From IMG/VR virus record IMGVR_UViG_3300036820_000626, positions 1-38,177 of that record: a stretch of DNA of 38,177 nucleotides; one strand, given 5' to 3'. This DNA comes from a virus. The translations under genes were made by a program, and so were the position numbers. Below, piece after piece: positions 4,139 through 15,859 of this stretch. Under the pieces are notes generated by a model. The model saw nothing but the letters and a program-made list of their open reading frames with translations, had not been told where the DNA came from and did no database searches. How positions within the stretch are numbered: the first letter of the stretch is position 1; each line of letters opens with the position of its first letter.

Positions 4139-4827
4139 CCTGCGGCCTCAGACTCCACAACAGGAGTTTCGCCCGGAAGAGCCGGCTGCTGCCGCGCCAG
4201 TTTCCACGCTGGCTGATACAGGAAAACGTTCGTCGGCGCCGGCGGCTTCGATTCGCTCGGTTTCAGCGGGAAGCCTGCCTTCCGCTTGTAAGTCAGATCG
4301 ATCGCGCGAATGAGGTCTGCATCCTCGATAGGCGCAGCCCCTTCAAGGGACTTCTCGAACTTGTCAGACTTATTCAGTTTGATGGTCGGCTTTCCCCTGC
4401 CGCTCGGCGGGGGCACAATTTCAATGGACACCCCGCCGTCCTGCAGTTCCCGGGTATCCCGGGTCAGCATCTCGCCACGGGTGCGCCGCCGCGTACGAAT
4501 CAGTTCCGCCAGTCTGCCATCAGCCTCGTCAAGGGTTAGCAGGAGCGCCCGTGCGGACGTTTCCGCAGCCCGATCACGCATCTTCTCAAGGATCAGGCGA
4601 TTCTGATCCCTGATCTCCCGGTGCTTCATCAGACGCGAAGCGCCCGTATGCGGATTTTTGTCATCAGGCCAGACCGAACGGAACGCCTCTGCCTGATTGC
4701 CCGTCTCGCAGTAGTTCTGGCAAAACAGGAGTTCCTCGGCGGTGAGAGGTTTCTGCACCGCAACGCGAGCCATCTTGTCTTTCGCGCCCTTTGGCCGTCC
4801 GGTCGGCTTTTTCTTATTGCGCGGCAT
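4135..4827 (-). CDS. terS: Terminase small subunit
   Basis: 230 residues. The N-terminus is basic (RNKKK, GRPKGAKDK). It is followed by a helix-turn-helix typical of small terminases: LTAEELLFCQNYCETGNQAEAF (about 28-49) and a second helix GASRLMKHREIRDQ. A long helical segment (about 70-115) probably oligomerises. The remainder is a basic, Pro-rich tail of about 100 residues that is longer than usual. It recognises the packaging site and hands DNA to the large subunit. It overlaps the 3' end of the giant gene by 14 bases and the large-subunit start by 4. Confidence 0.85.
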   Translation of the reverse strand: MPRNKKKPTGRPKGAKDKMARVAVQKPLTAEELLFCQNYCETGNQAEAFRSVWPDDKNPHTGASRLMKHREIRDQNRLILEKMRDRAAETSARALLLTLDEADGRLAELIRTRRRTRGEMLTRDTRELQDGGVSIEIVPPPSGRGKPTIKLNKSDKFEKSLEGAAPIEDADLIRAIDLTYKRKAGFPLKPSESKPPAPTNVFLYQPAWKLARQQPALPGETPVVESEAAG

Positions 4828-7800
4828 CGGCTTCCCGAACCGCCAGGGGATTACGCCGCAGCAGCGAATAACGCTTCTCCTGGAGCAGCAGCCCCAGAAT
4901 CCGGCGTTCTTCAGGGGTAGCGTAGTTCTCGAATGTATCCCGAGCCTGCAGGTAGGTCAGCTTATTGAACAGTCGTTTCAATTCCGGCTCTCGGGCCTTG
5001 GTGCGCGCCTGGAAGCCAGCGGCCGTGTGTGACCCCAGGAGAGCCTGGCGCTGCTTGAAAGATTGTTCGATCTGCTGCTCGGTGCGCGGTATCTCCTGCT
5101 CCTGCGCAAGTGTGAGCATGTGCCGCTCGGCGCGAGAGAGACCCATCTCGTACGGCGCATTCGAGAAGCCTGCGCCGGTCAGCAGCCGCTGTGCAAGGGG
5201 CTGGCCTTCTCTGCCGCCGCGCAGTATGTTCCCCACGCCAATAGGAGAGCCGACGATGTGCTCCGCGTCGTCCAACCGCTGCTTCCAGAAAGGGTCCTCT
5301 GGATTGTGGATCATCGCGTGGCGGAAGTCCTCGTTCTCTAACACGTCGGCGAAGCCACGGACGAGGTCTGATTCCTTGCCCTGGAGGTAGTTAGTCGCAC
5401 CGTTGTACCAGAGCGACATAGCGTCCTTCATCACGATGGCGGGCAGCACAACGCGGCGGGGTCGGTTGTATTGGTCATATCCGCCGATCCGCGCAGCGAC
5501 GTAATCCTCGGGATCCTGCGGATTTTCGCCCGTGAGCAGCTTCTGCAGCAGGATGTTGCCGAGCACGAAGGTGCCTACCAGGCCCAGCAGCTTCGCCATA
5601 TCCGGATGCAGCCGCGGCATGGCTTTTGTGCTCGAAAACTCCGGACCCCATTTCGTATCCGAGTTGAACTGCTGGTTCAGATACTTCATGGACTCCAGGA
5701 TCTCCGCCGCCTGCCCGGTGAACGCCCGGCCGACCAGCCGGATGTTGCCAGCAAACCACGTGAAAGCCCGGAAGGCGAGCTGTACGATGGCCTTGAATGT
5801 GTTGTGCCAGAAAAACTTGTCCCAATTCATCTGGCCAAACACGTCCTCGACAGAGTCCCAGGTTTGCCGCGCCAGCCGAGGAACGGTCGTCTGGCCAGTG
5901 CCGAGATCTGCGTTGCGATCGGCGATGCGCTCAGACAGTTCCCGCACGAACCCAGCGAATTTGACCCGGGGGATGTAGTACTCGAATAGCGGCGTCATCA
6001 GGAACTGGTTCAACGCCGGTGCCGTGTGGAACAGCGCAGCGACGGCACGCTTCTCCGCGATCGCCTGCCGGAATGCTTCGAGCGAATGCAGCCGCTCGTC
6101 TGGGTGCAGGGCCAACTTTGCGCCGCCCGTGAACGCGGCATCGATCAGGCGATTAAGCCCCGGAAACTCGTTCAGCAGGTCCTGGCCACGGCTGCTGCGG
6201 ACAAAGCCCTGTGGATCGGAGACGTAGCGCACCAGCGATGTTCCCATCCGGTAATCAAGCACCGGAGCGGCTGGCGTCTTCGCAATTTCCTTCAGAGCGC
6301 GGCCGGCAAGCACCGCGTCCATCTCCCGCGCGGCGCGGCTCATCATCGAGAGTCCCAGGCCAGCCTGAGACGCGATCGACGAGACGCTGGTCGTGAGAGC
6401 GTGGAACGGGGAAAATCCGAGCCTGAAAGCCGTAAGTTGGTTCTTCGCCCACATCAGGCCGCGCCCAATGACGTTAGCCCGAATCCAGTCCTTCGACAGG
6501 AAGTGATTTAGCGCGAGTGCGTAATCCTTCCGCAAATACCATTTCCCCGCTTCGACCATCCCCTCGCCGGACGCCGCCGGGAACCGTACATCCCCAATGC
6601 GGTCCTCGACCTGCTCAAAGCCGTCCGGTGCGGTGCGCCCCTTAGGGATGAACACTCGTGCGCCGTCGTCCAGTGCATCGCGCCAAATCTGCATGGCGGT
6701 GATGTACCGATAGTGGTCCGCCTGCGTCCGCTCGAACATCCGAATCGGGTTGTAGGACCACGGAACGCCTCCGCGCTCGATGCCTTCGGCCATCGTGGGG
6801 AGCGTCTGCATCTTCAGAAAGCGCTTCGAACCCGCCAGCGGCCCCCGTCCCACGCCAGACGGTCCCGCCGGCACCGGCGCCGCAGCCTGCGCTTCCGCAC
6901 CCTCCTTTTGTGGGGGCACCTTCCAGATACGCCCAAAATAGTCCTTCTTGTAAGTGAGTGCGCCTTCGGAGATTTCCTGCAGGTGCTCGATCGCCGACTT
7001 CTGCGGCTTCTCCTTCGCCGGCAGGTCCCGCAGCAGATCCTGATACTCCGGATCGGTGCGAATGATATCCAGAAAGTCCTTCTCGCTCACGCCATCCGGC
7101 TGCCGCAACTTCGCGCGCTCGTGCAGGTCGAAGAAGGCCCGTTTGCCTTCAACCGACAGACGCCGCCAGGTGCTCGCCACCGGCTCGCGCATGTTGAGTG
7201 CCTGCACGTTCACGACGGCACGGTAAGTCTCATCCGATGCCCGCCGCATGAACTTGGCGAGCTTGTCCAGCTCCGGCGTGGGCTGCGCCTCGCCAAGAGA
7301 GATGCGATCGCCGATGGCCACCTGCTCTGCCTGAGTGAGATTCCCAACGGCTTTCCGAAAGCCATTGAGGATCTGCTCAAGGATAAAGGCCCGTTTCTCC
7401 CGCTCGCCGAGAGCTGACATGATATTGTCGAGGGCGCGCGGATCGATGAGAGACCTCGGCACCACCATGCCGCGGAGTTCGTCGAGGACAGCGTCGAGGT
7501 TCCTGCCGAGCTTCTCCAGCAAGGGCTTTACCTCCACGCCGTATTCGTGTACCAGCACCTTGCCGACAGCCTGTGCCGCGAGATCCAGGCCGAAAGCCGA
7601 AGCGCGGAGCGTCGTCCCGCCATGCGGCTTCGGGTTCGACTTCTCAATCTGGTCGGCCTGCGCGTCGACATCGTCAACGGCTTCGGCTTCGCCCGGATCC
7701 TCGTCGTCGCTGTCCTCCAGCAGGTCATCTTCGGGGTCATCTTTCACTTCAGCGGAGACAGCCTGCGCCATAGCGTTCTCCACATCGGAGCGCATCCCGA

Positions 7801-10800
7801 GCCGCTTCTCGACTTCTTCCAGTTCCTTGTGCACCTTGTCGAGCTGCGCCTGTTCGGGGAAGTCCACGCGCTCTGCAAGCTCCTGCAGCTTGCGGGCTTT
7901 TTCGCGTACCCGAGGCAGTTCCAGCTGTATCTCTTCGAGGTTATCGGGGACATCGCGGAGGCGGGACTCGATTGACCGCCCGAGCGAGACCATGGAGCGG
8001 CTCGGCACCGTGAAGTAACCGTTGGAATACTCGGGGGTGTAATCCATCCCGGAAAGGTTCCTGGCCTCCTCCGGGTTCAGGGAACGCACTTCGACAGCGA
8101 TGCCAATGCCGTTCCACGTGAGATGGAAGTTGCCCGGCGGGACCTCCATCGCGTCCAAATGCTCATAGAGTGACTTGCGATCGGCGAAAGTCTTGCCATC
8201 CACCTGGACGTGGATGCCCTTGCCGTCTTCTCCCTGCGCAGCTTTGATCTTGTCGAGGGCCTGGGACAACTTTTGGACATCGCCCTCGTACTTCGCGGCG
8301 CGCATCGCCTCACGCTCGGCGTTCTGCCTGTTGGCGGTGCGCTGGCTCTCCCAACTGCGCCTGATGGCCTGCAGTTGCGACTTCTGCATCTGCAGATTGT
8401 ACTGGAGCTTCACATCTGGATTGCCCGACGCGGCGATCTTCATCTCTTCGAGCGAAAGCACCATCTCGCTGGCGATGTCCGACATGACGCGTTCTTTGCT
8501 GCGGCCGCTCATCACCTGGGAGATAAATTCGGCTTTACCCTGGAGGGTCTGCGCCATGTAGGCGTCAAAACTGCGCTCGGTGAGGTAGTTATAGATGCGG
8601 ACACTCGGGTTGAGATTACCCTGCCGCATGATGCGCCCATTGCGCTGCGCCAGGTCTCCCGGGCGCCACGTCAGATCGATGTGGTGGAGCGCCTTCAGCA
8701 GTCGCTGCGCGTTTGTACCGGCGCCCATTTTGAAGGTGGAACCGAGCAGGACCCGGACATCGCCGCGGTTCATGGCTGAGAACAACTCCTGCCGCTTCAT
8801 GCGCGTATCGTGTTCCCCGATGATGGCGATCTGCTCTTCGGGGATTCCGCGTCCCGCCAGCTTCGCCCGGATGTCCTTATAAAGGTTGACCGTCTCCCGG
8901 TCACTCTCCGGCTCCGTCGCGCGGTAAAGGTCCAGGAAAGCCATCTGTGTGGCCGGCCCCTCCAGGTTGTCTCTCCCCTCCCGCCATTCCTCGTACATCT
9001 TGTCGACGGCGAGATTGATCTTCGAATCTGCGTCGTCCGGCAGCGTGGGATCGATGAGCCGCATATCCGTTGCGGCTTTGCGGCCATCCGTGGTGATGGC
9101 CAGCATGTTGTCGTCTTTCGGCTCGACCTTGCCGCTGCGCACCGCCTCGGCCCGTTTCATCAGGCTTTTGACAAATTGCTCGAGACGTGGCGATGCGGGG
9201 ACGGGGACGACGATAGGCTTGCCCGTCTCCAGATCGGGTGTAGGAAGGTCCAGATCCTCGGCTGTCTTGATGTCCGCGAACGAGCGGAACATATTCATCA
9301 GCTCGGGAACGTTCTGGAACTGCGCGAATTTGGAGCGCGCCTTGTAGCTGCGCCCGTCGGCCGAAAGCTCCATGGCCGTAATGACGCTGCCAAAATTGGC
9401 CGCCCAGTCGTCGAAGAAACGGATGCCGGCTCGCTCCATCACGTCGGGCGCAACGTACTTGAACATGGTGTACAGTTCGGCCATGGTGTTCTGGATCGGC
9501 GTCCCGGTGGAGAAGATGACCCCGCGGCCGTTCCCGCGGTCCTGCAGATACTCGGTTTTCATCTTCAGCCGCAGTGCGCTTTTGGCCTTCGCCTGCTGCA
9601 GCCCCGCGACCCGCGTCATCTTTGTGTAGAACGAGAGGTTCTTGTACATGTGAGCCTCATCCACAAAGAGCGCGTCCACGCCCGTGTCGTCGAAGTAGAT
9701 GGCCCTGTCTGCCTTCAGATCGGCCAATTTCTTCAGCATGGCATCGAGCTTCGCCATCCCGGTCTCAAGCTGCTTGATGGTGCGCTTCTCGCCTTTCTCT
9801 GCCTTCAGCGCATCGACAGTTTCGCGCAGCTCCTGCTTCTGTTTCTGGATGGTCACCCGCTGCCGTTCCGGCGAAATATCCATTAGGTTGAACTGCGAAT
9901 GCGGCAGGATGATCGCATCGAAATCGCCGGTGGCGATGCGGGACATGATGCGCTGCCGGTTCTTCGCGTCGAAGTCCTTCTCCGTCGGCACGAGCAGATT
10001 AGCGGCCGGGTAAAGATGCAGGAACTCCTTTCGGAACTGCTCGACAATATGGTTGGGAACCGTAACCATCGGCTTTTTAAAGGTGCCGACGCGACGCCCC
10101 TCCATGATGGACGCCGCCATCTCAAAGGTTTTGCCAGCGCCCACCTCATGCGCAAGGAGAGCCCGGCCTTCCTGCAGAACGCGCCACACAGCATTGAGTT
10201 GGTGGGCCTTCAGCGTGATCGATGGGTTCATGCCGGGGAAGGTCAGGTGCGACCCGTCGTATTCCACCTGCGCCAGATTGTTGTAAGCGTCGTTGTAAAG
10301 CCGCTGGAGTTCGGGCTTCCAATCGGAGCGAGCGGACCACTTCTGGAACTGCTGCCGAATCTTCTCCTGCGCTGCCTGCGCCGCCGTCGTGGCGTCCGCG
10401 TTCAGGATGGAATTGCCAGCCAAATCGGTATCGTAGACCGTTGCCTGCTTCTGGTTCAACGTCAGTTCGAGCAGAGTTGAAGCATCCACGCGCGGAGTTC
10501 CGTATTCCCCCTGTGTCTCAGCGGTACGCTGTGCGACCGTCACCTTCCAGTTTCCCATCAGGTATTTAACTTCGCCGCCGGTCCGGAACACGTCCCGCAT
10601 GAAATCCCGAATCGCGTCTGTCGGGATCCACGTCGAGCCCAGGCGTACGGCCAGCGATGAGCGGGGGTCGTCGCCTATCTCAATGTCGGCCGGAATGACT
10701 TTTTCGAGAGCTGCGACATTCGGAGCGTACTCCTTCACGCCCTGCGCAACGGCCTTCTTCGCGTCGCGGAGCTTGTCGCGGACATACCCTGAGAGATAGG

Positions 10801-13800
10801 TCTCGCGGGTCTGGTACTGGCCGCTCGCCGGATTCCGGTAGATGAGCCCCTGATCGCGCAGGGTCTTGACGGTATCCTCGACCGAATCGCCTCTGAGCCG
10901 CGCCATCATCTGCACGTCGGGGAATCCACGCTCTGCAAGGACGAGCTGCAACGCTGCCTTAGGGTCGTCGGGGAGGGACTTCAGTTCCTCGCGCGGGAAG
11001 ATTGTGCGCCGGCGGAAGATATCTGCCCTGGTCCCCTTCCTCGCAGCCCTGTCCCAGTTCTCGAGAGCCAGAAGCCGCGGATAATGAGGATCGTCTCGGA
11101 ATGCATTGTTCGCTATGCCGTTGAGATATCCGTATTTTACGGCGAAAGCGTTGTATTCCTTCTCCAGTGCTCCGCGCAGCTGTGCGACTCTCCCATTGCC
11201 CTCGTCGTCGCCCGGCTGAGTCAACATGGCGCCAAGCAGCCGGTTCATCGAATCGCGCACTCCAACGAGTGCCTTGAATCGCTGGATCTTGCTCAGGACA
11301 GGTTTGCCGGCTTTATCGAGGACAGCCTCGGGCGCAACGAGTTTGCCGTCGATGCGTTGTTTCAGATTGTCCCTGGCATCGATCGTGTACTGGCCCTCTT
11401 TAACGTTATCTGGCGCGAACTCAGCCGCCGTCTGTGCGAGCGCCGAGCCTGTTGGCTCCTGAATCGCCGCATCGCTGATGATCCCGCGCGGGAGCTTCTT
11501 CTGGGCTTCCTTCAGCAGTTCTTCGATGTTGCTTCCCTCGTGCGCTTCGAGCACGAATCCCATGCCGCCATACATTTTGGTGGAGGCAGTCGGCTTCCCA
11601 AGCATCATCTCGGGGTGCTGCTGGAAATACTCGTTGACGTTCAGCGTCTCCATGCTCCCGTGCTTGCCCGGGAATTTCTGGGGCACGGCATTCAGCCATT
11701 CCGCCCTGTGGTTCGGCTCCTGGCCGGCCGCACGCTTCAGGAGGAAAATCAGGTCCGTTGTAACATCGGTCCCGGCGTTCGCCTTGAATGCGCCGGATGG
11801 GAGACGGATTGCCCCGAGGAAATCTGATTTCGACGCGAGCAGGGTGCGGATACCCGAGTCGGCTTTGTCCATGGTGCCCGTGGATGTGATAAAAGCGAGC
11901 ACGCCTCCGGGGCGCACCTTGTCCAGCGACTTCACAAAAAAGAAGTCATGCACCAGCGCAGTCAGTTTTTTATATTTGGGGTCGTACAACTTGTAGCCAC
12001 CGAACGGCGGATTGCCGATCGCCAGATCCACATCATCATCTGGCAGGATGAGGTCGGCGAAATCTTTGTTGAACGCAGTGGCTTCCGGATAGAGGAGCCG
12101 GGCGATGCCGAAGCTCACAGTATCCATCTCGTTGATGACCGCATTCACCTTCGCGCGGACAGACTTCGGCATCATGCCAAGGAAGTTGCCGGTGCCCACG
12201 GCCGGTTCGAGGACGTTTCCCGCCTTGAAGCCGAATCGCTGCGCCGTGTCCCACATGAAGCGGACGAGTTCTGGAGAGGTATAGTGGGCATTTTTCGTGG
12301 ATTCCTGGGCGCGCGCCATCTCATCGGGCGACAGAAGTTTTTGCAGTTCGCTGTTTGCGGCCTTCCACCGCGCCTGTTCCGCGACGGGTGCCATCCACGG
12401 GTCGAAGGCGTGCTGAAGAGCGCCCCATCCGACATAGTTAGCGAGCGCGTCACGCTCCTCGTCGGCCAACCTGCGCGGCTTCTTCTCAATGTCGCGCAGG
12501 ATGCGAATGGCCTTGAGGTTGGCCTCGAGCCGGCCGACAGTGCCGCTGGGCGGATGCCAGTTGTCGGGATGGACATACCAGCCGCGGTTGAGAGCCTTCG
12601 GCCTGGTCGTCTCGCGGACGGCCTTGCGGACTACTGCGCCGCCGGGGGTACTATCAAGTTCTGAATCGCTTCCCGCCCCTGATCCGGATTCAGGCCCCGA
12701 TTCTGGTACTGATGCAGGGTTTCCACGCACATCAGCGCGGTCTGGTGGATTTCCTTCTTCAGCGTCCCGTCCGCTTCCAGCTTCCGGTAATACTTCTTGC
12801 GGAACCTCTTCCAGTCCGTTTCGATCCGCGCCTCCAGCACGGGCAGCCGGGCGTCCTCCTCCGGCTTCACCGTCACCTGCGGAATGGGCTCTTTCGTCTC
12901 CACTGTCGTCATTTTGCGCCTCTTTCTCCGGGCTTGCAACCGTCTCCTGCGGCTGCGCGGCCTCGTCGAACACGTCCAGGTTCTCCGGCGTGCTCTCGGC
13001 GGGGCCAAGCACCTTCTTATGACTGACGTTGTACTCTTTGCCGTCTTCGGCTTTGATTCGCGCGACCAGCGCGTTCGAGTGTTTTACGGTACCGCTGCGC
13101 TCGTTGCCGTCCCTGTCGAGGAAACGAACAACATCGCCCTTCCGGGTGCGCGAAAACTTTACTTCGGCTGCTGCTCCAGGTCTTTCAGGCTGTTCGCCGG
13201 CTGGATGTTCTCGCTGCTCTGGAACCGATCCGGCCACAGGTTCCCCGGCGCGAAGAGATGGCTTTTCTTCGGCAGCGGCGTCCCCTTCTCTTCCATCCGC
13301 TTTTCCAGTCCCTCGACGAAGTTCTGCATCTCCTTCGCCATCTCGGGCGACCTGGTTTTCTGGCTCTCCAGAGCGTTCGCTGTCAACCGCTCCCACTCTG
13401 CCAGCCGTTCCGGTGACACTGGCATTTCGGTTCTCCTCTTTCAGTTTCGCGGCATACTCAAGGTACAACCGCGCCTGTTCCTTCTGTACCGCGATGTCTC
13501 TTTCGGCATCTGTACGCTGTTGCTCATCGCTGCGCCTGGATGCCGGATTGACCTTTCGAGCCGCATCCATCGTAGCGTCAACGCTCTGCTCGGACAAGGA
13601 CGCGGGGCGCGTTTCCGCGCCCACGGCCAGCTCTGGCGATTCTCCGCGACCTCCTTCCTGTTTGGTGGGATTTGCTGCGGAATTCTCGGCAGCTTTGTCG
13701 AATACATCGCCGCCCTGGCGCTGCAGCCGGTCCTTGATGACCTGACCCGTCGGCTTGACGCTGATCGCCGCGCCCGGGTGCCGTTCTGCCAGCGTCGCGG

Positions 13801-15859
13801 CCTGCGCATGGACCGCCTGCGGATTCGTGAGGTCTACTTCGCTGTCCTGGATCGGCGTGCCATCGGGAGCGGAGGCCTGCACGACGGTCGTACGCTTCCC
13901 GGCCAACTCTTCTTTCGTCTGGACATGTCCGAGCAGGTCGCCATGCGTGCCGTTCTCTGCGGCGCGGCGGATCGTCGCAGGCTTGACGGCCTTCGGGTTG
14001 TAAACGTACGTCCCGGCGCCTGGACCCTTCCGAACATCCATCGCCTTGAAGCCGTCCGGAATGGCCGGCTTGTAGCCAGACCCCTGGGGCAGCATGACGA
14101 CGCTGATATTGCCGCTCCTGAGCGCGGACATCTGCGCATCGACCGTGGCGCGCGATTCCTCGACAACAGGTTCCTCTTTTGCGCCGACGGTCGGAATCGA
14201 TGCGGCGGATTTTTCCTGTTGCCACTGATTAATGAGAGCCTGCGCCTTTCCATATCCCACCCGCAACTGGCGCTGAATCAGAGCGAGGGAAGGTCGCTTC
14301 CCAGCTTCCGCTGACGAATCCAATAGCGTCTGAGCCCGCTGGTAAAGCCGCCCCTCTGGTTCCTCGGCTGGTTCGTTCGGCTTCTGCTGTTCAACGGCTT
14401 TCGCCGGCTGCGCTGCTGGTTCCGGTTGCGGCTGATTTCGAATTGTGTCTTGCCGGGCCACTTCCGTGTTCACCAACTTGGCCGCGAGAGTCTGCGCCTG
14501 CTCGGGAGTCTTGACGATGTGAATCTCGCCATTGACGATGACGCGGCCCTGCTGTGCCATCCATTTCGCCAGATTCTCGTGCGCTTCCATCACCAGACCC
14601 GGACGGTCACCCGTCGCCGCCATCGCAATGGCTTTGGCGACATTCTGGATGGTATCCGGCGTGAGAATGCCCTGATCCATCCCCTGCGGCATCGGAGGCG
14701 CCGGGGGCTTCGGCGTCACGGAAGCTACAGCTTCGGCGGGCGGCACTCCCTGCACGATGGCCGCCGCTGCGGCTTCAGTGCGCTGCCGCTCGGCCATGGC
14801 TGCGGTGGCATCGCTGATCTGCCGGACAGCGGTCAGCCGCACCGGATCGACGGGACCACGCGGAACGCTGATGCTGACCTGCTTGCTCCCCACGCGAGCT
14901 CCGGCCGCCATCTCGGAATCCGTCGCGCCGAAGCCGGCCTGCACACGGCCGCCAAAGAGCGAGAGAGCTTTCCCCCTGATTCCCCTGGTGTTGACGTCGC
15001 CGGTCTGGATCCCACTTACGACCGCAGCAGCAGTCGGCAGGAAGAAGGCCAGCGTATTGGCGAACTCCTGGGCTTCCGGGCTCAGTCCCGCAGCCTTCGC
15101 CGCCAGGGCTGCGCCTTTCCCTGCATAGACGCCAGCATAGTAGCCGGCGAACATCTTGATTGGGGCAGCCGCCACTCCTTCCGCGAATAGCGGCGTTCCC
15201 AAGCCCATCGCGCCCTGGATCATTTCCGTGCCGCCTCGTTCCATCTGGCGAACGTTCGTGCGGCCCGGCTGCTCGATGGGCTTGCCCAATGCGATCGCCT
15301 GCAGCGGTGTCAGAGAGCCGCCGGCATTCGCACCCTCGACAACATCTCCTGTGCCGCGCCACAACTCACCGGCCGCCTGCCGTGGCCCCGCAGCGAGTCC
15401 CGTTGGACGCACAGCCTGTTGTTCGGCATACAGTTGTTGCTCCTCGGGAGTCGCCTGCCGCATCCCCGCCGGGACGCCGGAGAGCGCGGTCCCCCATGGC
15501 TCCTCCCGCATGGGTGCTGGATTCGGAGTCTCCGGTCCGCGCAGCGTCGGCGTTACTGGCTCCAGGGCATTTTTCTCGTTCGGTATGTCCGCAACGGTCT
15601 GCGGCGGAGGCGTAGTCTGCGCGAGCCGATATCCGCCGTCTCCTGCGGCTTCGGCCGCCTGCTCCGCCGTCGTTGCTCCCTGCGGCCTGGCGAACCGCTG
15701 CAGGATTGATTGACCGGGATTCTGATAGTTCGGCTGCAGCGGCACGCTGGACATCGCCCGCATTTGCGCGAGGGATTGCGCCTGCTGGTCCTGCTGCGCC
15801 ATATCGAAAACATCCGGCTGCGCAGGTGCAGCGGCAGCCTGGTCAAAGACATCCGGCAC
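4814..15859 (-). CDS. Giant polyvalent virion protein: N6-adenine methyltransferase + SF2 helicase + ejection-type C-terminus (DarB-like)
   Basis: 3681 residues, uninterrupted. GTG start with GGGAGG five bases upstream. Order: disordered Pro/Ala-rich N-terminus with DVFDxA motifs (3, 16, 718, 962); hydrophobic segment 210-285; FtsK-gamma-like winged helix 504-549; small domain 570-650; SH3/KOW-like segment 902-952; methyltransferase about 1090-1400 (motif I EPAVGTGNF from 1218, NPPF 1283-1286); SF2 helicase about 1880-2480 (GAGKT 1907-1911, DEAH 2067-2070, QRNGRIMRQGN from 2405); coiled coils; acidic cluster near 2707; C-terminal region 3000-3681 with a membrane-like helix near 3424-3443. Methyltransferase plus helicase is the architecture of phage P1 DarB, packaged in the head and protecting injected DNA from restriction. 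The C-terminus resembles domains in phage polyvalent proteins. Position between ejection proteins and terminase supports packaging in the virion. All catalytic motifs look intact. Confidence 0.9.
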   Translation of the reverse strand: MPDVFDQAAAAPAQPDVFDMAQQDQQAQSLAQMRAMSSVPLQPNYQNPGQSILQRFARPQGATTAEQAAEAAGDGGYRLAQTTPPPQTVADIPNEKNALEPVTPTLRGPETPNPAPMREEPWGTALSGVPAGMRQATPEEQQLYAEQQAVRPTGLAAGPRQAAGELWRGTGDVVEGANAGGSLTPLQAIALGKPIEQPGRTNVRQMERGGTEMIQGAMGLGTPLFAEGVAAAPIKMFAGYYAGVYAGKGAALAAKAAGLSPEAQEFANTLAFFLPTAAAVVSGIQTGDVNTRGIRGKALSLFGGRVQAGFGATDSEMAAGARVGSKQVSISVPRGPVDPVRLTAVRQISDATAAMAERQRTEAAAAAIVQGVPPAEAVASVTPKPPAPPMPQGMDQGILTPDTIQNVAKAIAMAATGDRPGLVMEAHENLAKWMAQQGRVIVNGEIHIVKTPEQAQTLAAKLVNTEVARQDTIRNQPQPEPAAQPAKAVEQQKPNEPAEEPEGRLYQRAQTLLDSSAEAGKRPSLALIQRQLRVGYGKAQALINQWQQEKSAASIPTVGAKEEPVVEESRATVDAQMSALRSGNISVVMLPQGSGYKPAIPDGFKAMDVRKGPGAGTYVYNPKAVKPATIRRAAENGTHGDLLGHVQTKEELAGKRTTVVQASAPDGTPIQDSEVDLTNPQAVHAQAATLAERHPGAAISVKPTGQVIKDRLQRQGGDVFDKAAENSAANPTKQEGGRGESPELAVGAETRPASLSEQSVDATMDAARKVNPASRRSDEQQRTDAERDIAVQKEQARLYLEYAAKLKEENRNASVTGTAGRVGAVDSERSGEPENQVARDGEGDAELRRGTGKADGREGDAAAEEKPSLRAGEPVAGSVPEQREHPAGEQPERPGAAAEVKFSRTRKGDVVRFLDRDGNERSGTVKHSNALVARIKAEDGKEYNVSHKKVLGPAESTPENLDVFDEAAQPQETVASPEKEAQNDDSGDERAHSAGDGEAGGGRPAARAGGADRNGLEEVPQEVLPEAGSGRDAEEGNPPDRADVRGNPASVPESGPESGSGAGSDSELDSTPGGAVVRKAVRETTRPKALNRGWYVHPDNWHPPSGTVGRLEANLKAIRILRDIEKKPRRLADEERDALANYVGWGALQHAFDPWMAPVAEQARWKAANSELQKLLSPDEMARAQESTKNAHYTSPELVRFMWDTAQRFGFKAGNVLEPAVGTGNFLGMMPKSVRAKVNAVINEMDTVSFGIARLLYPEATAFNKDFADLILPDDDVDLAIGNPPFGGYKLYDPKYKKLTALVHDFFFVKSLDKVRPGGVLAFITSTGTMDKADSGIRTLLASKSDFLGAIRLPSGAFKANAGTDVTTDLIFLLKRAAGQEPNHRAEWLNAVPQKFPGKHGSMETLNVNEYFQQHPEMMLGKPTASTKMYGGMGFVLEAHEGSNIEELLKEAQKKLPRGIISDAAIQEPTGSALAQTAAEFAPDNVKEGQYTIDARDNLKQRIDGKLVAPEAVLDKAGKPVLSKIQRFKALVGVRDSMNRLLGAMLTQPGDDEGNGRVAQLRGALEKEYNAFAVKYGYLNGIANNAFRDDPHYPRLLALENWDRAARKGTRADIFRRRTIFPREELKSLPDDPKAALQLVLAERGFPDVQMMARLRGDSVEDTVKTLRDQGLIYRNPASGQYQTRETYLSGYVRDKLRDAKKAVAQGVKEYAPNVAALEKVIPADIEIGDDPRSSLAVRLGSTWIPTDAIRDFMRDVFRTGGEVKYLMGNWKVTVAQRTAETQGEYGTPRVDASTLLELTLNQKQATVYDTDLAGNSILNADATTAAQAAQEKIRQQFQKWSARSDWKPELQRLYNDAYNNLAQVEYDGSHLTFPGMNPSITLKAHQLNAVWRVLQEGRALLAHEVGAGKTFEMAASIMEGRRVGTFKKPMVTVPNHIVEQFRKEFLHLYPAANLLVPTEKDFDAKNRQRIMSRIATGDFDAIILPHSQFNLMDISPERQRVTIQKQKQELRETVDALKAEKGEKRTIKQLETGMAKLDAMLKKLADLKADRAIYFDDTGVDALFVDEAHMYKNLSFYTKMTRVAGLQQAKAKSALRLKMKTEYLQDRGNGRGVIFSTGTPIQNTMAELYTMFKYVAPDVMERAGIRFFDDWAANFGSVITAMELSADGRSYKARSKFAQFQNVPELMNMFRSFADIKTAEDLDLPTPDLETGKPIVVPVPASPRLEQFVKSLMKRAEAVRSGKVEPKDDNMLAITTDGRKAATDMRLIDPTLPDDADSKINLAVDKMYEEWREGRDNLEGPATQMAFLDLYRATEPESDRETVNLYKDIRAKLAGRGIPEEQIAIIGEHDTRMKRQELFSAMNRGDVRVLLGSTFKMGAGTNAQRLLKALHHIDLTWRPGDLAQRNGRIMRQGNLNPSVRIYNYLTERSFDAYMAQTLQGKAEFISQVMSGRSKERVMSDIASEMVLSLEEMKIAASGNPDVKLQYNLQMQKSQLQAIRRSWESQRTANRQNAEREAMRAAKYEGDVQKLSQALDKIKAAQGEDGKGIHVQVDGKTFADRKSLYEHLDAMEVPPGNFHLTWNGIGIAVEVRSLNPEEARNLSGMDYTPEYSNGYFTVPSRSMVSLGRSIESRLRDVPDNLEEIQLELPRVREKARKLQELAERVDFPEQAQLDKVHKELEEVEKRLGMRSDVENAMAQAVSAEVKDDPEDDLLEDSDDEDPGEAEAVDDVDAQADQIEKSNPKPHGGTTLRASAFGLDLAAQAVGKVLVHEYGVEVKPLLEKLGRNLDAVLDELRGMVVPRSLIDPRALDNIMSALGEREKRAFILEQILNGFRKAVGNLTQAEQVAIGDRISLGEAQPTPELDKLAKFMRRASDETYRAVVNVQALNMREPVASTWRRLSVEGKRAFFDLHERAKLRQPDGVSEKDFLDIIRTDPEYQDLLRDLPAKEKPQKSAIEHLQEISEGALTYKKDYFGRIWKVPPQKEGAEAQAAAPVPAGPSGVGRGPLAGSKRFLKMQTLPTMAEGIERGGVPWSYNPIRMFERTQADHYRYITAMQIWRDALDDGARVFIPKGRTAPDGFEQVEDRIGDVRFPAASGEGMVEAGKWYLRKDYALALNHFLSKDWIRANVIGRGLMWAKNQLTAFRLGFSPFHALTTSVSSIASQAGLGLSMMSRAAREMDAVLAGRALKEIAKTPAAPVLDYRMGTSLVRYVSDPQGFVRSSRGQDLLNEFPGLNRLIDAAFTGGAKLALHPDERLHSLEAFRQAIAEKRAVAALFHTAPALNQFLMTPLFEYYIPRVKFAGFVRELSERIADRNADLGTGQTTVPRLARQTWDSVEDVFGQMNWDKFFWHNTFKAIVQLAFRAFTWFAGNIRLVGRAFTGQAAEILESMKYLNQQFNSDTKWGPEFSSTKAMPRLHPDMAKLLGLVGTFVLGNILLQKLLTGENPQDPEDYVAARIGGYDQYNRPRRVVLPAIVMKDAMSLWYNGATNYLQGKESDLVRGFADVLENEDFRHAMIHNPEDPFWKQRLDDAEHIVGSPIGVGNILRGGREGQPLAQRLLTGAGFSNAPYEMGLSRAERHMLTLAQEQEIPRTEQQIEQSFKQRQALLGSHTAAGFQARTKAREPELKRLFNKLTYLQARDTFENYATPEERRILGLLLQEKRYSLLRRNPLAVREADAAQ
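12631..12912 (-). CDS. Nested small gene inside the giant gene (93 aa, shifted frame)
   Basis: 93 residues starting MTTVETKEP at an ATG preceded by AGAGG at good spacing. The frame is shifted one base downstream of the giant gene. The product has natural composition: a helical core (LPVLEARIETDWKRF, KKYYRKLEADGTLKKEI, then a helix with LHQYQNRGLNPDQG) and an end in IVPPAAQ. It vaguely resembles small mobile-element proteins that follow large phage or plasmid genes, but no family was established. By hand count only 16 of 93 codons end in A or T in this frame, against about 59 of 93 in the giant frame over the same bases, where the giant protein is low-complexity Gly/Glu/Asp/Ala. This codon signal says the small frame is, or was, a real gene. 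Confidence 0.65.
   Translation of the reverse strand: MTTVETKEPIPQVTVKPEEDARLPVLEARIETDWKRFRKKYYRKLEADGTLKKEIHQTALMCVETLHQYQNRGLNPDQGREAIQNLIVPPAAQ
13159..13425 (-). CDS. Nested small gene inside the giant gene (88 aa, shifted frame)
   Basis: 88 residues starting MPVSPERLAEWERL at an ATG preceded by AAGAGGAG with seven bases between, a strong ribosome binding site. It uses the same shifted frame as the other nested gene. It is helical and charged (residues 5-48), then has a Pro/Phe-rich segment (HLFAPGNLWPDRF). No family was recognised. By hand count 14 of 88 codons end in A or T, against about 54 of 88 in the giant frame over the same bases. There the giant protein reads as a Gly/Glu/Arg/Ala-rich linker between the region ending near residue 812 and the SH3-like segment at 902. 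A real overlapping gene, or a captured former gene, is likely. Confidence 0.65.
   Translation of the reverse strand: MPVSPERLAEWERLTANALESQKTRSPEMAKEMQNFVEGLEKRMEEKGTPLPKKSHLFAPGNLWPDRFQSSENIQPANSLKDLEQQPK

Follow-up and report, generated by a model that had tools for sequence, protein, structure and literature searches.

A DarB-like giant gene with two embedded reading frames

The window, by which we mean the whole 38,177-nucleotide stretch of viral DNA analysed (IMG/VR virus record IMGVR_UViG_3300036820_000626), carries most of its large genes on the minus strand. The gene of interest is a giant ORF of 3681 aa (4814..15859, minus strand) encoding a DarB-like polyvalent protein, in which a core composed of LPD36, an N6-methylase and an SNF2 helicase is accompanied by N-terminal and C-terminal extensions. 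The protein matches phrog_10089 (DarB-like antirestriction) with 1499 bits and the Pfam domains N6_Mtase (aa 1184-1377), SNF2-rel_dom and ResIII; an N6-methylase followed by an SNF2 helicase, the arrangement we use to define a DarB-like protein, is recovered by Pfam and PHROG. The DarB protein of phage P1 protects injected DNA from restriction. The same order of LPD36-like segment, N6-methylase and SNF2 helicase is found in the DarB-like methylase-helicase dyad of polyvalent proteins (Iyer et al. 2017, PMC5512222), a paper whose text mentions neither an overlap nor TnpV. Four copies of a DVFD motif (aa 3, 17, 717 and 961), perhaps a linear docking or processing motif, are located in the N-terminal third of the giant protein.

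Two complete ORFs lie within this gene, both on the minus strand and both in the +1 frame relative to it, in agreement with the original prediction that two nested ORFs, each with an ATG and a Shine-Dalgarno (SD) site, are contained in the giant gene. The first, n1 (13159..13425, 88 aa, ATG to TAA), is preceded by the SD region AAAGAGGAGAACCGAA (13426..13441), which leads directly to its ATG. The second, n2 (12631..12912, 93 aa, ATG to TAG), has its SD region at 12913..12930 (GGAGAAAGAGG, 5' of the ATG), with the sequence CCGGAGAAAGAGGCGCAAA immediately upstream of the start codon. Between the two ORFs is a putative SH3-like segment of the giant frame (12980..13158), which is conserved in the giant frame of another locus (L005), and directly 3' of n2 are the LPD36-like segment and the start of the N6-methylase domain (11700..12560), a stretch matched by 107 phage records.

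Codon usage in n1 and n2 resembles that of real genes, and the giant frame is reversed exactly there. Codons ending in A or T account for 14/88 in n1 and 16/93 in n2, whereas the giant frame has 53/88 and 59/93 across these stretches; the hand count that had been reported earlier agrees with ours to within one codon (53/88 vs ~54/88). In the remainder of the giant gene, 24% of giant-frame third positions are A or T. With a score for synonymous codons that was trained on the other genes of the window and expressed as nested frame minus giant frame, we obtained +0.70 for n1 and +0.74 for n2. Elsewhere in the giant gene, 321 segments of 88 codons had a mean score of -0.43 (sd 0.19) and a maximum of only +0.13, which places the signal of both ORFs far beyond chance and bears out the expected frame-specific codon preference over this region. 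The switch stops at the ends of the ORFs, and the giant frame is again the coding frame between them, in the segment of aa 902-952 that the nested frames were said to flank.

Conservation of n2 and selection on both frames

Searches with the window's n2 protein (tblastn) returned weak matches, several of them inside annotated DarB-like genes, and in local searches these matches were likewise in the +1 frame of the giant genes. With the copy from phage Atu_ph08 as query, the gene was found in 11 cultured phages (Atu_ph08, PBC5, POI1126, VvAW1, Mwe-JY07, Pavtok, PEp14, Stean, LASTA, SopranoGao and Itty13; SJM3, nearly identical to LASTA, was counted with it), and in the cultured-phage records inspected it has no gene annotation of its own. 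In alignment scans, n2 was recovered from 70 viral contigs, from 3 of the same type as the window and from 22 loci in bacterial genomes. After removal of duplicates we retained 105 loci, 100 of which are embedded copies from cultured phages, prophages and viral contigs. The window's clade is divergent, with roughly 16-28% identity to the bulk of the family; however, a family profile built without this clade finds n2 as the best of the window's 666 frames (E 7e-8), and the clade therefore belongs to the n2 family. Padloc, NCBIfam and a sequence comparison with PDB gave only chance-level matches, and a helicase match in V1VFA-S (L008) was discarded as a chance hit, being on the opposite strand and without an embedded gene.

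In every one of the 100 distinct embedded loci, the n2 homologue occupies the same +1 frame and the giant frame is open across it. The start codon is ATG in 99 of them, and an SD-like site precedes it in 92, compared with 14 of the 75 remaining +1 ATGs of the giant gene in the window. As a complete ORF within another, with its own start and ribosome binding site and with both frames conserved, n2 can be classed as an embedded overlapping gene. No sigma-70 promoter was found near n1 or n2, and there is therefore no evidence for a separate transcript.

Substitution patterns across relatives indicate that the nested protein is constrained. In 26 pairs, substitutions per site at nested codon positions 1, 2 and 3 were 0.137, 0.120 and 0.249, and the third position of the giant frame is the slowest inside the overlap and the fastest just downstream of it (0.377). 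Nested-frame identity exceeds giant-frame identity in 26/26 pairs. Because giant-frame third positions are the slowest and nested identity is the higher, we conclude that strong purifying selection acts on the nested protein and that n2 dominates the overlap.

The giant frame is also under selection, which is visible at the level of stop codons. A giant-frame stop arises whenever a nested codon ending in T precedes a codon that starts with AA, AG or GA. At 1977 such stop-prone sites from 61 diverse embedded loci, T does not occur once, while codon choice at safe sites predicts 116 occurrences; similarly, ten plasmid loci (described below) contain 0 giant-frame stops where 24 are expected. From these deficits we conclude that selection keeps the giant frame open. 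Stand-alone n2 copies carry 1, 2, 3, 7 and 15 giant-frame stops, a count that serves as a contrast and not as an independent test, since these copies were set apart precisely because their giant frame is broken or short.

The comparison of selection per frame that had been proposed thus gives a constrained n2 frame and a giant frame held open. The original prediction was to be abandoned if the nested ORFs had no homologues and no conserved start and binding site, with selection confined to the giant frame; for n2 we find the opposite on every count.

For n1, we found no homologues in viral contigs and phages. Nested ORFs at L005, L002 and L090 are similarly placed, but their alignments with n1 are no better than those of shuffled sequences, and kinship was rejected. 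Its codon signal is as strong as that of n2, which can be used as a validated reference within this gene, and is bounded by its ATG, SD site and stop. We consider it likely that n1 is a real gene, and on these intrinsic features it is probably a lineage-specific embedded one. The claim that both small genes are still translated separately is accordingly backed by comparative evidence in the case of n2 and by intrinsic evidence, with no homologue, in that of n1.

Second embedded ORFs that are specific to a lineage also occur in other giant genes. The Erwinia phages Pavtok, PEp14 and Stean have a second +1 ORF of 76 aa with reversed GC3 (L012 3529-3759, L015 3763-3993 and L017 3748-3978) and a conserved GTGGAGGC SD site; its codon-position contrast is weaker. 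A Pro/Gln/Lys-rich +1 ORF in a place comparable to that of n1 is kept between two contigs (L002 1817-2014 and L090 3320-3541), with 69% identity in the nested frame vs 51% in the giant frame.

A TnpV-like family beside methylase-helicase genes

Profile comparisons indicate that n2 belongs with the TnpV-like small proteins. The Pfam family TnpV (PF14198), known from mobilizable transposons and plasmids, is similar in length to the n2 family, shares its helical nature and core pattern, and matches 41/59 of its members, mostly below the curated cut-off. A Fibrobacter member (L113) reaches 35.5 bits, above the TnpV gathering score of 27; other members scanned singly gave 13-19 bits, under the cut-off, or no match, and the window's n2 has no match in Pfam. 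In the reverse direction, the n2-family profile finds most plasmid genes annotated as TnpV (E 1e-10 to 1e-3) and, within a small test set, a strong TnpV (L114) at 2.5e-4. TnpV is known as a free-standing gene, unlike n2, which lies entirely inside a giant ORF, in its +1 frame.

The predicted structure of n2 (pLDDT 79) consists of four helices. Its best structural match is PG0816 (2apl; Z 7.9, rmsd 2.7 over 69 residues; next Z 4.8), a Z value under the level trusted for helical bundles, among which middling values are common. We take PG0816 to be a member of DUF1896 (PF08989). Sequence similarity between DUF1896 and the n2 family was not detectable with the family profile (E above 2), and the suggested link comes from the modelled fold and from gene position. 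In Bacteroidota, DUF1896 genes lie directly before a helicase-methylase of 1772-1829 aa, the same place as n2, and overlap the first few codons of this gene of about 1800 aa; in contrast to the fully embedded +1 arrangement of n2, this short overlap is in another relative frame. Among open-licence papers, nothing on point was found on TnpV with a helicase or on DUF1896.

One annotation that might suggest a different function proved to be an artefact. Matches to phrog_938, obtained for 55/59 members and readable as "endolysin", are confined to positions 2084-2185 of 2185, that is, to the C-terminus of PBC5 orf33, and not to its lysis domain. In this Sinorhizobium phage (L009, AF448724, 5930-6309), a one-base difference runs the upstream half of the giant gene, orf33, into the nested frame; the last 100 or so positions of phrog_938 are therefore TnpV-like. 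A Foldseek search of viral models with the n2 structure gave a single confident match, Q8W6J4 (probability 1.00), which is possibly the same PBC5 orf33.

The family extends to plasmids. No plasmid match was obtained with the Atu_ph08 n2 protein; the Fibrobacter member as query led to TnpV-like genes on actinobacterial plasmids (52 records). All ten of the plasmid loci read have TnpV directly before the same methylase-helicase gene or within its 5' part, in the +1 frame relative to this helicase ORF, whose frame is open through it. Annotations vary, listing either TnpV with a late helicase start or the helicase alone. For instance, six records (L120, L121, L126, L127, L131 and L132) have a TnpV-like CDS called and the helicase start placed near or after its end; these starts are probably wrong because the open helicase frame extends far upstream.

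The position relative to the methylase module is also similar across phages. At most loci, 7-49 or about 135-216 giant codons separate the nested stop from the LPD36-like motif that opens the module. Module-bearing phages without an n2 detectable by tblastn (Burkholderia DC1, Pseudomonas 8P, Pseudoalteromonas Y7 and Bacteroides BKO1-TP3) nonetheless have, in the same place, a +1 ORF (87-107 aa) in which the codon bias is reversed, and the one in DC1 matches the n2 profile weakly (E 1e-3). P1 DarB begins directly at the methylase, with neither an N-terminal extension nor an embedded gene. In a gut phage-like contig (L141, 740-1150), a typical separate TnpV gene of 136 aa with an AAGGAGG site is located about 1.9 kb upstream of the methylase region.

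Stand-alone copies (L101, L102, L109, L110 and L112) have no adjoining methylase-helicase of DarB-like type in the DNA read. L101, L109 and L110 hold an intact small gene without a giant gene, and that of L110 (Pseudidiomarina) is fused to an apparent membrane domain. In two unrelated genomes, HsdM-like type I methylase genes adjoin the small gene on the opposite strand (L112 320-2911 and L113 1-1844), which may be chance. Giant proteins of Fibrobacter and Arthrobacter-type elements (L113 2916, L117 1756 and L129 1129) begin with QLNLF or QLSF, starts that resemble a beta-clamp binding motif.

Origin of the overlap, alternative readings and implications

A tree of 76 n2-family proteins was built from few columns and leaves many forks open. 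It places the plasmid copies in one group (100/99) and scatters the stand-alone copies among embedded ones, with at least 4 changes forced. Given this scatter, the embedded state is probably old and the stand-alone copies secondary; those in Pseudomonadota look like later escapes. Since the +1 overlap is common to proteobacterial phages and actinobacterial plasmids, it is not recent. The proposal that a separate small gene was captured into a fused giant frame is consequently upheld in outline for n2, whose family has stand-alone relatives and whose plasmid counterparts adjoin the methylase-helicase upstream, but not as a recent capture. The simplest course of events would start from an ancestral pair, the small gene followed by the helicase. 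The helicase frame would then have extended 5' through the small gene, with further upstream domains fused on afterwards, and the stretch of giant protein over n2 would have become a low-complexity linker while the small gene remained under selection.

We estimate a probability of roughly 85% that n2 is a real, selected, embedded TnpV-like gene, as its conservation suggests. Its protein would be made by internal initiation at its own SD site and ATG on the transcript of the DarB-like giant gene. Programmed ribosomal frameshifting, which would give a shortened giant protein with the nested domain at its C-terminus, is highly improbable: the one-base difference in PBC5 encodes exactly such a fusion, but in 26/100 loci the last 30 nt before the ATG contain an in-frame nested stop (the last 9 nt in 12 of these), so that internal initiation is favoured, and the conserved elements are the SD site and the ATG. 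The same PBC5 difference, just upstream of n2, could be cited for compensating frameshifts or assembly errors, in which a linker once read as giant protein was shifted in frame by two indels, giving a GC3 switch at both ends. Such indels would not account for the recurrence of one +1 frame, complete with start, SD site and stop, at 100 loci as well as in plasmids from a different phylum, nor for a giant frame selectively held open; this reading deserves almost no credence overall and is already refuted for n2.

Two further readings accept the small frame and question its relation to the giant one. If the giant ORF were two genes in most phages, open by chance in GC-rich DNA, only the small frame would matter; the low-complexity, freely evolving giant frame over n2 and the several plasmid annotations with a helicase start after TnpV agree with this, but the complete lack of stops in 61 diverse loci and their presence in stand-alone copies make it very unlikely. 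It is less improbable, although still rather unlikely, that n2 is a genuine embedded gene whose protein acts freely in antirestriction or host takeover and is kept in place by fusion history. Stand-alone copies without a DarB-like methylase-helicase nearby, the mostly negative net charge of the family (median -5) and the hsdM-like genes near two of its members speak for free action; against it is that phages, plasmids and (judged by fold) elements of Bacteroidota persistently have the gene directly ahead of this one module.

We slightly favour, from this persistent neighbourhood, some functional partnership between n2 and the methylase-helicase. As an embedded TnpV-like gene, n2 would then encode an accessory protein of the methylase-SNF2 helicase, e.g. 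a chaperone or regulator acting until the enzyme protects incoming DNA. In mobile elements, the LPD36-methylase-SNF2 helicase module would have the TnpV-like family as its partner gene on the upstream side, and embedding would guarantee co-inheritance of the two. By a narrow balance of probability, an embedded +1 partner may be both ancient and general among the methylase-SNF2 polyvalent genes of phages and plasmids, and giant genes may host further lineage-specific embedded genes.

A known parallel is provided by the Rz/Rz1 spanins of phage lambda, where Rz1 is contained in full within its partner gene, in the +1 frame, as n2 is within the giant gene. Across phages, Rz1 occurs in embedded, overlapped and separated layouts, in the +1 frame, and is often missed by gene callers (PMC6139136). 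However, Rz1 is a membrane lipoprotein for lysis, whereas the host gene of n2 encodes a giant DNA-protection enzyme, and no lipoprotein signal was noted in n2.

For long overlaps in prokaryotes, n2 is a case in which both frames are shown to be selected. It also explains faults in existing annotation, namely the late helicase starts on plasmids and the wrong-frame sequence that makes up the last hundred positions of a PHROG family, and it offers a model of how separate operon genes become fused giant genes while a small gene is retained. The cultured phages examined have no annotation for the n2 protein, which is carried within a giant gene related to P1 darB; a helper protein of the anti-restriction machinery thus seems to have been overlooked in many phages and plasmids, and the question of whether DarB-like methylase-helicases work alone becomes testable.
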